Assembly (NCBI GenBank): GCA_011174815.1
Contig: DUFF01000084.1
Coordinates: 1 to 35,404, forward strand
Reading direction: 5' to 3'
DNA: 35,404 nt
From: Dehalococcoidia bacterium
GTDB taxonomy: Bacteria > Chloroflexota > Dehalococcoidia > Dehalococcoidales > RBG-16-60-22
The position numbers and the translations under genes are program-made. Below the pieces are notes generated by a model. That model saw only the letters and a program-made list of their open reading frames with translations. It was not told the DNA's origin and did not search any database. Below are positions 1,088-7,661 of the stretch, in pieces (within the stretch, counting starts at the first letter, position 1; every line of letters starts with the position of its first letter).

Positions 1088-2467
1088 TTATTTGGAACTG
1101 GGCAGGGTGAAGGTCAAACGGGTGCCCCTGCCCAGTTCACTCTGGACTTCAATGCCACCGCCATGGGCCTCGACCAGGCGTTTAGCAATGGTAAGTCCGA
1201 GGCCGCTACCGCCCGTAGCCCGGGCTCGGGACTTGTCAACACGGTAGAAACGTTCAAATATGTTAGGCAGGTCTTCATCGGGGATGCCCTTACCCGTATC
1301 AGCCACAGAAACCTCCACCCAGTTGTCCTTCTGTATGGCACTAACGTTAATGCTATCACCGCTGTCAGTGTGAGCCATGGCGTTATCCAGAAGGTTATGA
1401 AGCACCTGGGCAATCCGCTGAGAATCGATGTTCACCGATGGCAGCTCATCGCCGAGGTCAACAGATAATGCCACACCTTTTGACGCCGCCTGAGCCTGGA
1501 AAGCCAGTACTGACTGGCTTATCAACTTAGAGATGTCCTCAGATTGGCATATCAGTTTCAATTCGCCCGCTTCGGCGAGACTCAGCTCTTGAAGCTCGTC
1601 AACCAGCCTTGCTAGTCGGGTCGCCTCTTCATTTAGTGATTGGATAGACTCGGCATCCGGTTTCATTACGCCATCGTTCACTGCCTCCAGATAGCCGCGG
1701 ATATTGGAAAGGGGGGTTCTCAGCTCATGCGCCACATCAGCCACCATATTGCGCCGCAATTGCTCAGCACGTTCCAGGTCATTGGCCATTGAATTGAATG
1801 CCCGAGCCAGCTCTCCCACTTCGCCCTTGTCCTTGAGCTCCAGCCTCTGGGAGAAATCTCCCTGCCCCAGCCTCCTAGCGGCTTCAGTCAGCGCTTTTAT
1901 GGGATACAGGATTCGCCGCGATAAGATAAGGGTCAGGGCCAGCGCCACGCCGCCCCCTATAAGACACCCCCAGATAACAAACTGCGTTATCGAGTGAGAT
2001 AGAAACAGTGACGAAGTCGGGTCTGTTGACGATTCCGGACCGATATAGATGGTACCCAGCGATTCCGTTATCGTTGGTGGTTGCGGCAAAAAAGGATGTG
2101 GCGGAAAGGGCTGCGGCGGTAAGAGCAAAGGTTTTTCTGATGGCGGAGGCTGGTATGTCTGCCCTACCAGTGCTCCCTGAGAGTCAGCAATAACTACGCC
2201 GCTTTTATCAGTGAGCACGATGCGGCGGCCGTACAAGCTTCCCATCTCCTCAACCTGGGTCTGAATACCGGTCCAGTCCCCCTGCTCGAAATAGTGTTGT
2301 GTGAGCGAATGCAGCAAGCGGGCAAAGTGCGCCTCCTCACGCCGCTCCTCAAAGCGCCCGATTTCCCCGCTTGTCCTCAGGCTTATGAAGAGAGAAACCG
2401 TGCCGATGGTCACCAGTATTACCGAAAGGAAGGCGATTAAAAGACGAAATCTCAGGCTATGTATCAT
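1088..2467 (-). CDS. HAMP-domain sensor histidine kinase
   Basis: N-terminal TM, Pro-rich extracytoplasmic region, second TM, HAMP, H-box [21 protein letters not shown]-box and G-boxes ([39 protein letters not shown]). Confidence 0.95.
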
Positions 2468-3152
2468 TACCCGCCTCTAAAAACTTATAACCGACTCCGT
2501 ATACTGTTTTGATATATTTAGGATGGTCAGGGTCTGCCTCCAGCTTGCGACGCAGGTTAAGGATATGGACATCTATGGTACGGTCAAAGCCTTCAAAGTC
2601 ATAACCAAGGGCTTTGTCGATGATTTCGGCCCGGCTGAAAACCCTGCCGGGTTCTTTTGCCAGAATCCCCAGCAGTTTGAATTCAGTCGGCGTCAGATTC
2701 AGAGAACTGCCATCAAGAAATGCCTGATGCTTCCCGAAGTCTACAATAAGTTTACCGTTCTTGATTTCAGATGGACCACGCTCCCCGGGGAGACGCCTGA
2801 GCAAGGCCCTCACTCTGGCCGCCAGCTCCTTGGGGCTGAAGGGTTTGGTCACATAGTCATCTGCTCCCAGGTCTAGGCCGGTCAGCTTGTCCTGTTCGGT
2901 TGTTTTGGCGGTGAGCATAATGATTGGCACATCGGATTCCTCCCTCAGGGTGCGGCAGACCTCAAGCCCGTCCATGCCGGGCAACATAAGGTCCAGAACA
3001 ATAAGGTCAGGATGTCTTTCCCGGGCCTGACGCAGGGCTTCAATGCCATCATAAGCCGTCAGCACCCGGTAACCATCCCGGTTCAGATAGAGTTTGACCA
3101 GTTCCACCGTTTTTTGGTCATCATCAACAATTAATACCCGTTTGCCTGCCAT
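2457..3152 (-). CDS. OmpR/PhoB-family response regulator
   Basis: Receiver domain ([32 protein letters not shown]) and winged-helix output ([25 protein letters not shown]...[14 protein letters not shown]...GVGYKF); overlaps the kinase start by 11 bp. Confidence 0.97.
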
Positions 3153-3201
3153 CGTTGAATCTTCCCATTAACCAGTCCTCAGTTAATGTTATACCATAAA
3201 T

Positions 3202-3219
3202 GTTAAGAAATTATTAATT
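3202..3219 (-). promoter_or_regulatory. Putative response-regulator binding site upstream of the regulator gene
   Basis: Minus strand AATTAAT-aatt-TCTTAAC, heptamer direct repeat with 11-bp start-to-start pitch, 50-67 bp upstream of the regulator ATG. Confidence 0.4.
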
Positions 3220-3240
3220 CTCTGTTGGCCCATTAAAGAA

Positions 3241-3269
3241 AGGAGAGGGGGAGAATGTCCCCCTCTCCT
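3241..3269 (-). terminator. Strong hairpin, probable intrinsic terminator downstream of the small exported protein
   Basis: AGGAGAGGGGGA / TCCCCCTCTCCT perfect 12-bp arms, 5-nt loop; minus-strand continuation TTTCTTTAATGG. Confidence 0.65.
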
Positions 3270-3301
3270 GGCACGGCCACTAAATGAAACCGCTACGACT
3301 T

Positions 3302-3712
3302 TTACTGGCCATTCCACGGCATACACGGTCCAGGAAAACCACGGGGCCCGCCATGGCCTTTGAAGCCGAATTCAAACGGAACATCAGGCCTTGCCTGTTG
3401 CCACTGTAGAAACCCATCGGCCTGTTCCTGAGTTATCTCGCCCTTTTCTACCAGGCTCTGAAGATGGTTCTGCATGAACTTAGTTTGCTCCTCGCTTCGG
3501 GCTTGGGCAAAGGCATCTTCGAGCGCTTCTGGCTCAATGGCGACGCCGGTATTCTGTTCGTAGATTTCACAGACCCTGTCCAGCAGCGCCCCGTATCGGG
3601 TTTCAGTCTGGTTGTCATCATCACCGTTAGCCAGGACTACCCCACCGAGGCTCCCGGCCAAGACTACCGCTGCCAGCAATGTAACAATAATAAACTTTTT
3701 ACTTCGCCACAT
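3302..3712 (-). CDS. Small exported protein, DUF2680-like
   Basis: Signal peptide MWRSKKFIIVTLLAAVVLAGSLGGVVLA; helical region with LVEKGEITQEQADGFLQWQQ; Gly/Pro-rich Cys-containing tail; RBS AAGGAGGTGCAACCGAAATG. Confidence 0.8.
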   Translation of the reverse strand: MWRSKKFIIVTLLAAVVLAGSLGGVVLANGDDDNQTETRYGALLDRVCEIYEQNTGVAIEPEALEDAFAQARSEEQTKFMQNHLQSLVEKGEITQEQADGFLQWQQARPDVPFEFGFKGHGGPRGFPGPCMPWNGQ

Positions 3713-3767
3713 TTCGGTTGCACCTCCTTTCCTTTGTGAATTCTATCAACAATGATAAAGAACAAAT

Positions 3768-3785
3768 ATTAAAATCTGATTAAGA
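3768..3785 (-). promoter_or_regulatory. Putative response-regulator binding site upstream of the small exported protein
   Basis: Minus strand TCTTAAT-caga-TTTTAAT, 11-bp pitch direct repeat, 56-73 bp upstream of ATG at 3712. Confidence 0.4.
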
Positions 3786-3841
3786 TTCTAAGAGAGCGGC
3801 AAACCATTGTGCGAAGCCGATATCGTGCCCGATTGTAGAGG

Positions 3842-3862
3842 AATCAATGATGATCATTGATT
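3842..3862. promoter_or_regulatory. Perfect dyad, operator-like
   Basis: AATCAATGA-tga-TCATTGATT, 9-bp perfect inverted repeat with 3-bp centre in the divergent intergenic region. Confidence 0.45.
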
Positions 3863-3871
3863 AAGTATAAA

Positions 3872-3889
3872 TCTTCATAATTTCTTAAT
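3872..3889 (+). promoter_or_regulatory. Putative response-regulator binding site upstream of the exporter operon
   Basis: TCTTCAT-aatt-TCTTAAT, 11-bp pitch direct repeat, about 70 bp upstream of ATG 3960; the wider 3877-3893 block matches the regulator-promoter block 3198-3214 (reverse complement) at 16/17 positions. Confidence 0.45.
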
Positions 3890-3959
3890 ATTTCCCTGCC
3901 ATACTAATTGCAGAATTATTTTTTCTCACTGATAATAGAGCAAATAGGAGGCCGGGAAT

Positions 3960-5750
3960 ATGAAGAGAATGGTAAAGATAGCCCTTATAGTTTTTATTAT
4001 TGTCGGGCTTGCCCTTCCCTCGTTGGGCTGCGGTTCGGAGCCAGACGAGGCGGGGCCAGCGGAAACTCAGATAGCCACCGTAGAGCGGGGTGACCTGACC
4101 GTGGAAATCACCGCTGCCGGCAATCTGGCGCTATCCCGTACCGAGGACTTATCCATTGACCTATTCTATCAAGAAGGAACGGTAGAAGAGGTTCTGGTGG
4201 AAGAGGGAGATATCGTTGAGGAAGGACAGGCGCTGGTCAAATTGGACACTGAGGAATGGGAGGATAATCTAGACGAATTGCAGGACAAGTTGACCGAAGC
4301 AGAGCGTGCCTTGACAGCAAAGAAGCGCGCCCTAGTCCAGGCTGAGCGCAAAGTTATCGACCTTGAGCGCGAGGTTGTCGATAAAGAAGATGATGTAACC
4401 AAGGCTGAACGCCAGGTTACTGCCAAGGAGATTGCCGTGAGCCAGGCGCAGCTCAACCTGGATACGGCGGAATATGACTTAAGCGAAATAGACGAGGTGA
4501 AAGAAGCGCAGGACGCTGTAGATGAAGCGGAAGATAATTTGAGGCTTATTAGAATGGTGCAAAGGGGCGAGTTAGGCGGAGGGCTGCAGGGCAACTTCGC
4601 CTACTGGAATGAGCTGGAAGTCCGCGCTGAGGAAGAATTAGCTGAAGCGCAGGAGGAATTGCAGGAGATACTGAATGACCTCAGTACTCGGATATCAGAC
4701 GATGTAGCACTGGACGTAGCAGAAAAACAGCTACAGGTCAAACAGAAGCAGCTGGCACTTGAGGATGCGCAGATAGCGGTAGACGATGCCGAGAAAGCGG
4801 TAGCGGATGCCAGATATACTTTGGAGGATGCACAGTTAGATGTGGAGGATGCCAGGCATGATGTGGGAGATGCTCAGTTAGATGTAGAGGATGCTCAGAA
4901 AGCGCTGGGGGACACCCAGGAAGAGTTGGAAAAGGCAAACAGCAAAAGCCCGATTATTGTGGCACCGTTCGACGGGTTCATCACGAAGGTAAATGTGGAA
5001 GGTGGCGACGAGGTGTTGAGCGGTACAGTTGCTGTCCAGCTTGCCGACCCCAACAAATTTGAAGCAGAGATCATGGTAAGTGAAATGGATATATCGCAAA
5101 TAAAAGAGGGAGGAGAAGCCTGGGTGCAGGTTGATGCTCTATCCGGCCTGACCCTTCCCGCTGAGGTAACTCATATTTCACCCACAGCTACCATTTCACA
5201 AGGGGTGGTGAACTATAAAGTAAAAGTCGAAGTGGCGTCACCTGAAGAAATGATGCAGGAGCAGCAGGCAGCCCAGCAGGAGGCAGCAAAGAGAATACAG
5301 GAGGGGGAACTTCCCGAGCGCTTGCAACAGGCAATCGAAGAGGGGCGGATTACGCAGGAACAGGCGGAAGAAATGATAAATCAGATGCAGCAGTTGCCGG
5401 GAGCGCAGCAATGGCAATTGTCCTCAGCAATACCTGAAGATTTTCAGCTCAGGGAAGGCCTGACCGTCACCGTAACCATCGTGGTGGCCGAGAGAAGCGA
5501 TGTGCTGCTCGTCCCCAACGCGGCGATTACCACTCAGGGAGGGCAGAGCTATGTCCAGGTGGTATCATCGTCTGGTGACACCGAACAGCGCACCATACGG
5601 ACCGGCATCAGCGACTGGCAGTACACCGAGGTAACCGAAGGGCTGAGCGAAGGCGAGCAGGTGATTGTACCGCAGGGGACTACCGTTACATCGACAACGC
5701 AATCGAGAGGTCCGGGAGGGGGCATAATGTTCGGACCGCCCCCCAGATAA
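3960..5750 (+). CDS. HlyD/MacA-like membrane fusion (periplasmic adaptor) subunit
   Basis: N-terminal signal/lipobox-like segment ending in GC; biotinyl-lipoyl halves (TVEEVLVEEGDIVEEGQALVKLD, SPIIVAPFDGFITKVNVEGGDEV), long coiled coil, beta-barrel and MP domain; directly precedes MacB-type ATPase and permease. Confidence 0.93.
   Translation: MKRMVKIALIVFIIVGLALPSLGCGSEPDEAGPAETQIATVERGDLTVEITAAGNLALSRTEDLSIDLFYQEGTVEEVLVEEGDIVEEGQALVKLDTEEWEDNLDELQDKLTEAERALTAKKRALVQAERKVIDLEREVVDKEDDVTKAERQVTAKEIAVSQAQLNLDTAEYDLSEIDEVKEAQDAVDEAEDNLRLIRMVQRGELGGGLQGNFAYWNELEVRAEEELAEAQEELQEILNDLSTRISDDVALDVAEKQLQVKQKQLALEDAQIAVDDAEKAVADARYTLEDAQLDVEDARHDVGDAQLDVEDAQKALGDTQEELEKANSKSPIIVAPFDGFITKVNVEGGDEVLSGTVAVQLADPNKFEAEIMVSEMDISQIKEGGEAWVQVDALSGLTLPAEVTHISPTATISQGVVNYKVKVEVASPEEMMQEQQAAQQEAAKRIQEGELPERLQQAIEEGRITQEQAEEMINQMQQLPGAQQWQLSSAIPEDFQLREGLTVTVTIVVAERSDVLLVPNAAITTQGGQSYVQVVSSSGDTEQRTIRTGISDWQYTEVTEGLSEGEQVIVPQGTTVTSTTQSRGPGGGIMFGPPPR
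4761..4928 (+). repeat. Eight tandem 21-bp / 7-aa coiled-coil units inside the adaptor
   Basis: EDAQIAV/DDAEKAV/ADARYTL/EDAQLDV/EDARHDV/GDAQLDV/EDAQKAL/GDTQEEL in phase without interruption. Confidence 0.85.
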
Positions 5751-5757
5751 GGAGCCG

Positions 5758-6432
5758 ATGACATTGATTAAATTACGCGATATAACCAAGGTCTACCCCA
5801 TGGGCAAACGAGAACTAACGGTGCTCCGAGGGATAAGCGTTGATATCGAAAAGGGCGAACTGGTGGCGATTATGGGTCCTTCAGGCTCGGGCAAGTCTAC
5901 CATGCTCAACCTGATAGGCTGCCTGGATAAACCGACCTCGGGCAATTACTACCTGGAGGGCAAAGAGGTAAGCCGACTGAATGGCCGTGAACTGGCCGGA
6001 ATCAGAGCCAATAAGATAGGTTTTGTCTTTCAGACCTTCAATCTGCTGCCACGGCTTTCGGCGCTCGCCAACGTGGAGCTGGGCATGAGGTACGCCGGCG
6101 GTGTGGACCGTGCCAAGGCTCTGGAGGCACTTGAAAGAGTGGGATTGGCCGACCGAGCTAATCATCGTCCTACCGAGATGTCCGGCGGAGAGATGCAAAG
6201 GGTGGCCATCGCCCGGGCTCTGGTGAAAAACCCACCCCTGATTCTGGCCGATGAGCCTACCGGCAATCTGGACAGCCGCTCCGGCGCGGAGATAATCTCC
6301 ATCCTGACCTCGCTGCACGCTGAACAGGGCATCACCCTGCTTATGATAACCCATGATGCAAACATCGCTCACCATTGCCAGCGTATCATCCACCTCATGG
6401 ACGGGCAGGTAGAAAGGGAGGAGCAGGTATGA
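5758..6432 (+). CDS. ABC transporter ATP-binding protein, MacB/LolD type
   Basis: Walker A GPSGSGKST, signature MSGGEMQRVAIARAL, Walker B LILADEPTGNLDS. Confidence 0.97.
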   Translation: MTLIKLRDITKVYPMGKRELTVLRGISVDIEKGELVAIMGPSGSGKSTMLNLIGCLDKPTSGNYYLEGKEVSRLNGRELAGIRANKIGFVFQTFNLLPRLSALANVELGMRYAGGVDRAKALEALERVGLADRANHRPTEMSGGEMQRVAIARALVKNPPLILADEPTGNLDSRSGAEIISILTSLHAEQGITLLMITHDANIAHHCQRIIHLMDGQVEREEQV

Positions 6433-7661
6433 AGAAGTGGCTTGAACCTATGAGCACTGCCTGGGTCGGCGTGGCCACGCACAAGCTGCGCAGCTTTTTG
6501 ACCATCCTGGGGATAGTAATCGGCGTGGCCGCCGTAATCAGCCTGATGTCCATCGGTAGGGGGGCCCAGGAAGACATCCTCTCCCGCATCGAGACCCTCG
6601 GGTCCAACCTCATCACCATCAGCCCCGGGTCGTTTACTTTCCGCGGCGTAGGTGGTGCTGCCGGCGGTGCCCAGACCCTCACCATAGAAGATGCGGAGGC
6701 AATTGCGGAGCAGGTCCCCTACATATCTGCGGTAGCTCCTTCTTACTCAAGCAACCTTCAGGTAGTCGCCGGCGGTGAGAACATGAACTCCCAGGTTACC
6801 GGGGTAACTCCAGAGTATATGTCGGTAAACAATCTGGAAATTGCCAGCGGCAGTTTTTTCACCGAATTCGAATATCAGCGTGGCGCGAGGATAGTCGTGA
6901 TTGGCTCCGAGATTAAGGAAACGCTCTTTGGCGATGCTGACCCCGTGGGGCAGCAGATACGCATGGGCGGTATCATCGTGCGCGTCATCGGCGTGCTGGA
7001 GAGCAAGGGACAGATGTTTGGCTCGCCTGATGACGCCATCTTTATCCCGCTGACCGCCATGCAACAGGCGGTTGCCCAGCCGCGAACGGCTCAGGGGGAA
7101 CGCGTGGTATCATCCATATCGCTGACAGTAAGCGACGAGAAGCAGGCGGACTACGTGGTTGCTGAAATCACTACCCTGCTCCGCGCTCGCCACCAGCTTG
7201 GTCCCCTTGATGAGGATGATTTCAACATCAGGTCCATGGAGGAACTGGCCCAAACGGTAACCGAAGCAACAGGCACGATGACTCTTCTGCTGGGCGCTAT
7301 CGCCGCCATCTCATTACTCGTGGGAGGTATCGGCGTGATGAATATCATGCTGGTCTCCGTTCTGGAGAGGACCAGGGAGATAGGTATTCGCAAGGCCCTC
7401 GGAGCCAGGGAGAGGGATATATGGATTCAGTTTCTCATTGAAGCGGCTTTCCTGACTTTTGCCGGCGGTATCATCGGGGTTATCGCAGGCTGGGTAGTTT
7501 CCTATATTGTCTCCAGCACAGGGCTGGTATCAACTGTGGTTTCGGCTGACATAGTTATTATGGCAGTCTCGGTATCGGTAGGCATCGGTCTTTTCTTCGG
7601 CTTCTATCCCGCCTGGAACGCGTCACGTCTGAACCCAATTGAGGCTTTGAGGTTCGAATAG
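6429..7661 (+). CDS. MacB-like ABC transporter permease (FtsX domain)
   Basis: Start corrected to the ATG at 6429 (ATGA overlap with the upstream stop): MKKWLEPMSTAWVGVATHKLRSFLTILGIVIGVAAVISLMSIGRGAQ...; C-terminal ERTREIGIRKALGARERDI. Confidence 0.95.
   Translation: MKKWLEPMSTAWVGVATHKLRSFLTILGIVIGVAAVISLMSIGRGAQEDILSRIETLGSNLITISPGSFTFRGVGGAAGGAQTLTIEDAEAIAEQVPYISAVAPSYSSNLQVVAGGENMNSQVTGVTPEYMSVNNLEIASGSFFTEFEYQRGARIVVIGSEIKETLFGDADPVGQQIRMGGIIVRVIGVLESKGQMFGSPDDAIFIPLTAMQQAVAQPRTAQGERVVSSISLTVSDEKQADYVVAEITTLLRARHQLGPLDEDDFNIRSMEELAQTVTEATGTMTLLLGAIAAISLLVGGIGVMNIMLVSVLERTREIGIRKALGARERDIWIQFLIEAAFLTFAGGIIGVIAGWVVSYIVSSTGLVSTVVSADIVIMAVSVSVGIGLFFGFYPAWNASRLNPIEALRFE

Follow-up and report, generated by a model that had tools for sequence, protein, structure and literature searches.

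Three promoters of one envelope locus in a Dehalococcoidia bacterium carry paired direct repeats (boxes) that, judging from comparison with related genomes, are probably the operators of an autoregulated OmpR/PhoB-family envelope-stress regulon run by the adjacent two-component system. The locus lies within the window, i.e., the whole 35,404-nucleotide stretch of DNA that was analyzed, and comprises the following features, with the source of each assignment in parentheses:

1088..2467, minus strand: sensor histidine kinase with HAMP, HisKA and HATPase_c domains (Pfam)
2457..3152, minus strand: OmpR/PhoB-family response regulator, the presumed reader of the boxes (Response_reg and Trans_reg_C)
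3188..3193, minus strand: candidate -10 element of the regulator promoter, TATAAC, 8 bp past the second repeat (sequence)
3202..3217, minus strand: regulator-promoter box, TTAAT-N6-TTAAC, with heptamers at 3219-3202 (sequence, relatives-only profile, 24/27 relatives)
3241..3269, minus strand: terminator-like hairpin at the boundary between the small-protein gene and the regulator promoter (MFE z -4.3)
3302..3712, minus strand: small exported helical protein, DUF2680-like (domain search of orthologs)
3752..3757, minus strand: candidate -10 element of the small-protein promoter, TATCAT, 10 bp past the second repeat (sequence and relatives' alignment)
3768..3785, minus strand: small-protein promoter box, TCTTAAT-N4-TTTTAAT, with the core TTAAT-N6-TTAAT (relatives-only profile, 27/31 relatives)
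3872..3889, plus strand: exporter promoter box, TCTTCAT-N4-TCTTAAT (relatives-only profile; kept in congeners and in unlinked exporter operons)
3900..3905, plus strand: candidate extended -10 element of the exporter promoter, TGc-CATACT, 10 bp past the second repeat (sequence and alignment)
3960..5750, plus strand: HlyD/MacA-like adaptor lipoprotein of the exporter (Pfam and NCBIfam)
5758..6432, plus strand: MacB/LolD-type ATPase (Pfam and NCBIfam)
6375..7661, plus strand: MacB-type permease, MacB_PCD plus FtsX (Pfam)

A preliminary description of this DNA had reported three heptamer pairs, whose coordinates, strands, gene orientation and 11-bp pitch were all recovered as given there. Counted back from the start codon, the box begins at 67 bp for the regulator gene (3219 to the ATG at 3152), at 73 bp for the small-protein gene (3785 to 3712) and at 88 bp for the exporter (3872 to 3960), and the 17-mer ATAATTTCTTAA[C/T]ATTT indeed matches at 16 of 17 positions between the regulator and exporter promoters. 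The repeat unit was borne out in part: the pair at 11-bp pitch stands, but the full TCTTAAT heptamer does not, the conserved unit being TTAAY-N6-TTAAY together with a -10-like element.

The reality of this motif is decided by phylogenetic footprinting. Relatives were gathered via the small protein (101 genomes) and via the adaptor (nine loci, mostly from Dehalococcoidia/Chloroflexi and one unrelated). The cluster of small protein, regulator and kinase is conserved among them, with 72-93% identity of the regulator in nearly all loci. With the window and one duplicate left out of the counts, TTAAY-N6-TTAAY was found upstream of the small-protein gene in 27 of 31 relatives and upstream of the regulator gene in 24 of 27, compared with 0.09 and 0.12 in dinucleotide shuffles, and the core stands in gene orientation at a near-fixed distance. 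In the same upstream regions, pitches other than 11 bp occurred 0-1 times, none being enriched, the complement pattern was absent, and the reversed pattern appeared at most once; the core was likewise absent upstream of the kinase, ATPase and permease genes of the relatives. Tandem direct half-sites at a pitch of 10-11 bp, by which OmpR/PhoB-family operators are recognized, are thus present at the 11-bp pitch only. The preliminary description would have abandoned the motif if it were lost upstream of orthologous loci or no commoner than in composition-matched shuffles; instead, the core is kept across an order and lies far above its dinucleotide shuffles.

Matching the bare consensus, by contrast with footprinting, is weak evidence. 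A loose scan for TCTTAAT-N4-TCTTAAT (up to three mismatches) found five matches in the window, where 1.8 were expected, but genome-wide it returned 81 matches, below the 108 of a reversed control, and at that scale it is useless. A profile termed R1 was built from 42 sites of relatives and no sequence from the window, although its independence is partial because sites from congeners are included. R1 was run over the window's 1.57-Mb genome, where a first look gave 474 candidates, of which the best 150 were scored. Four matches were obtained at E up to 10, and the first three ranks fell to the small-protein box (E 1.6e-4), the regulator box (E 2.1e-4) and the exporter box (E 2.8e-4). The fourth match among these 150 (G000:C70:66261-66292, locus L133; E 0.25) precedes an alpha/beta hydrolase gene; it is probably a weak but real member, because congeneric orthologs of this hydrolase in genomes G002 and G003 also bear the core. 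The failure of the loose scan to exceed its reversed control is what one would expect if the boxes were chance likenesses of A/T-rich -35 regions in an AT-rich promoter background. That explanation is rejected and retains a negligible probability, given a shuffle expectation of about 0.1 (0.09 and 0.12) against 27 and 24 observed, the strict 11-bp pitch with no reversed or complementary enrichment, and the genome-wide R1 ranking, with just three strong sites in 1.57 Mb among the best 150 of 474 candidates.

The genes served by these promoters belong to recognizable families. The regulator matches Response_reg (7e-35) and Trans_reg_C (1.8e-28) in Pfam, as expected from the earlier assignment of the adjacent gene to the OmpR/PhoB family; its receiver, its Trans_reg_C winged helix and a cognate HisKA kinase place it among two-component members of that family. 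None of the regulator, kinase, ATPase and permease reached the cut-off of an NCBIfam equivalog model, so none is named by these models. Orthologs of the small protein matched DUF2680 at E up to 1 in 18 of 26 cases (best 2e-9), and the window's own protein gave a sub-threshold match (E 0.024). It is predicted to have a hydrophobic helix at its N terminus, followed by three more helices. Comparison of its model (pLDDT 73) with the PDB gave no significant match, leaving a CpxP/Spy relationship unsupported by fold, although a distant one may exist. In all 27 loci examined, including that of the window, the segment ahead of the regulator box is strongly structured, with a folding energy under -15 kcal/mol. 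Since the hairpin divides the small-protein gene from the regulator promoter, the small protein is expected to come from its own transcript, and the regulator and kinase from a second, autoregulated promoter. Such separate transcripts would suit an abundant secreted effector combined with feedback.

The position of the boxes suggests how they may act. In the aligned promoters of relatives, TTAAY-N6-TTAAY is followed after about 10 bp by a -10-like hexamer, frequently with TG and a single intervening base ahead of it, and a promoter search at the boxes found no consensus -35/-10 promoter in gene orientation. Class II geometry, with the box in place of the -35 element and about 10 bp upstream of the -10, is seen in the small-protein and exporter promoter alignments. 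At the regulator promoter (TtATAAcAT in the relatives' alignment), the register is ambiguous because the hexamer fits either 8 bp (TATAAC) or 10 bp (TAACAT) past the second repeat. A phosphorylated regulator dimer would bind TTAAY-N6-TTAAY head-to-tail where a -35 element would otherwise lie, and would recruit RNA polymerase to the -10 element about 10 bp downstream, as in PhoB-type class II activation. Many OmpR-family proteins both activate and repress. The boxes might therefore be repressor or dual-acting operators, with the regulator repressing its targets unless signalled, and a location inside the -35 region or directly ahead of it would suit this too. We consider it improbable, and none of the results favors it, since these promoters have no recognizable same-orientation -35 element and the box precedes the -10 by about 10 bp, as do the two repeats of the E. 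coli PhoB boxes at activated pho promoters (PMC1906773). Under activation, the regulator would switch on the operon that encodes it, together with the genes for the small secreted DUF2680-like protein and the MacAB/YknXYZ-like exporter. Conserved, position-fixed boxes are consistent with the autoregulation and the co-control of exporter and DUF2680-like protein predicted in the preliminary description.

The adjacent regulator is supported as the reader of the boxes by their co-occurrence, together with the lack of HtrA or exporter boxes in regulator-less genomes (see below). Of 151 genomes of the order, 43 have a full-length regulator ortholog (E up to 1e-85); 39 of these 43 gave a box at E up to 0.01, against 15 of the 108 others (Fisher p 3e-19). 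Among genomes that gave the profile no sites, the figures were 19/23 and 12/105 (p 4e-11), both p-values being inflated by common descent and by assemblies that are incomplete. Of the 15 box-bearing genomes without a detected full-length ortholog, at least one (G021) has its regulator split between contigs. The recognition helix, DRTIDVHIL followed by N or K and then LRRKLE, is kept with small variations in the orthologs compared. The window's genome encodes five further OmpR-type proteins, four of them with a quite different helix; all five are at most 46% identical to the regulator, and no box was found near any of them.

The fifth of these proteins (C88; L076:5165-5839) combines a PhoB-like helix with a degenerate receiver and, by eye, has glutamine synthetase and an ammonium-transporter-like gene in its vicinity. 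On account of this receiver and these nitrogen-gene neighbors, it is likely a GlnR-type nitrogen regulator. Three congeneric genomes encode OmpR-type regulators (44-46% identity) interrupted by one in-frame TAA stop (G003:C53:857-1549, G002:C53:7425-8117 and G005:C64:1406-2095). In addition, four tandem 11-bp TTAA-type repeats occur at L135 (about 1135-1180) and L140 (about 954-1000), upstream of methylglyoxal-synthase-like and arsenate-reductase-like genes and adjoining a paralogous regulator-kinase pair. They look like a multi-repeat operator of the Pho-box type. Because the paralogous system adjoins such repeats, the TTAA half-site is probably common to closely related regulators, and cross-talk may occur in the relatives that have this system.

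Alternatively, the boxes could be Pho boxes whose reader is a PhoB/PhoP phosphate regulator, or they could serve another OmpR-family protein of the cell. The TTAAC repeats at 11-bp pitch resemble the cyanobacterial SphR boxes (CTTAACCT, 8 + 3 bp; PMC1906773), and the pitch matches general PHO-box geometry, in which each 11-nt repeat has seven conserved and four less conserved nucleotides (PMC4415409). Also in keeping with this view are the paralogous regulator-kinase pair of G028 and G018 (53% and 51% identity), followed by its four tandem repeats, and the PhoB-like recognition helix of the GlnR-like orphan. The alternative is nevertheless unlikely: box presence tracks orthologs of the adjacent regulator, the other OmpR-type proteins of the genome are at most 46% identical and have no box nearby, and the recurring targets are envelope genes. 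The locus was not assigned to the Pho regulon because the regulator scores 236 bits against the PhoB model cut-off of 296 and no pst operon occurs among the inspected targets. Compared with the Pho boxes of PhoB, PhoP and SphR, the putative operators of the adjacent regulator share the 11-nt repeat, the spacing of about 10 bp before the -10 and, with cyanobacteria, a very similar half-site, but comprise two repeats, whereas SphR needs three or more, and precede envelope rather than phosphate genes.

In relatives, the regulon appears from box recurrence to reach beyond the locus, an aspect absent from the preliminary description. In the family-wide profile scan, boxes away from the locus repeatedly precede exporter operons, either unlinked or located downstream, as well as genes for HtrA-type proteases, CotH-family proteins, an alpha/beta hydrolase and EtfA; order-wide, HtrA, the exporter and EtfA reappear, joined by a SurA/PpiC-type isomerase, TIG/Ig-repeat surface proteins and proteins with NPCBM-associated domains. 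Most recurring targets are exported proteins. The HtrA targets bear trypsin and PDZ domains, and their promoters carry the core in all 14 regulator-bearing genomes of other genera that could be scored (profile scores being low in two), while a fifteenth, cut by a contig end, gives a partial profile match. The core was found at HtrA promoters in none of eight genomes scored as lacking the regulator. Strong exporter boxes are confined to regulator-bearing genomes, though not present in all of them. Within the window's own genus, no HtrA promoter of the five regulator-bearing genomes carries the core, which makes the envelope-stress reading weaker there.

Some matches fall outside this pattern. 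EtfA-like genes (electron transfer flavoprotein alpha) carry a box in several families (L116, L120, L131, L320, L324, L325 and L349) and form an unexpected non-envelope target; neither they nor the alpha/beta hydrolase are obvious envelope genes. The best box of the family scan (L119; G020:C83:2622-2655) is followed by a MutS2-like gene in a genome where neither the regulator nor the small-protein gene was detected, and may be a fossil promoter or an assembly join. A match at a DnaA promoter (L138), for which recurrence was not seen, was set aside as probable chance.

Several characterized systems offer points of comparison. In CpxRA of Enterobacteria, the two-component genes adjoin the gene for a small exported protein (cpxP). 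CpxRA is an autoregulated OmpR-family system with tandem half-sites, GTAAA-N5-6-GTAAA, as is proposed for the present one, and its targets include HtrA/DegP and a peptidyl-prolyl isomerase (PMC9600279). Unlike CpxRA, the present system has the half-site TTAAY, a regulator that fits the models for MtrA, RpaB and PhoB better than the one for CpxR, a DUF2680-like small protein with no CpxP-like fold found in the PDB comparison, and a MacAB-like exporter among its putative targets; the locus was not classified as Cpx because its small protein belongs to another family and its half-site differs. CiaRH of Streptococcus is a further two-component system that controls HtrA. Two reports describe CssRS of Bacillus and Streptomyces as exerting two-component control of HtrA-type proteases under secretion/envelope stress (PMC5157995, PMC12802291). 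The likeness to CssRS and CiaRH lies in putative control of an HtrA-type protease, suggested here by boxes outside the window's genus; it spans a different lineage without evident sequence-level orthology, and the small DUF2680-like protein and exporter belong to the core locus only here. The exporter resembles MacAB-TolC and YknXYZ in its adaptor, MacB-like ATPase and MacB_PCD/FtsX permease. Unlike in MacAB, the ATPase and permease are separate proteins rather than a fused MacB, and all exporter subunits score far below the MacA/MacB equivalog cut-offs.

By analogy, the best reading is that the system would work like CpxRA, CssRS or CiaRH, through autoregulated OmpR-family control of an HtrA-type protease and envelope genes. 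The ancestral regulon would have been a response to envelope or secretion stress, comprising the HtrA protease, the exporter, the small secreted protein and surface proteins. In this circuit, the small protein would probably be an abundant effector or would feed back on the kinase in the way that CpxP does on CpxA. Searches of the open-licence literature found no paper linking DUF2680 with two-component systems, no functional paper on DUF2680-like small proteins and no Dehalococcoidia envelope-stress regulon. A wider proposal, tentative though far from implausible, is that Dehalococcoidia and relatives possess an order-wide regulon for envelope stress with its own operator and composite promoter, that the DUF2680-like protein is a new kind of secreted partner for the kinase, and that the output was rewired in the window's genus, with HtrA outside the regulon and the exporter beside the regulator gene inside it.

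The circuit is thus of a familiar type, here in a largely uncultured bacterial group. The regulatory wiring of Dehalococcoidia, most members of which are uncultured, is nearly unknown; across this order, sequence comparison yields a predicted binding site together with the likely regulator and the targets that recur, giving a prediction for each genome. DUF2680-like small proteins thereby gain a testable place in an envelope-stress circuit.
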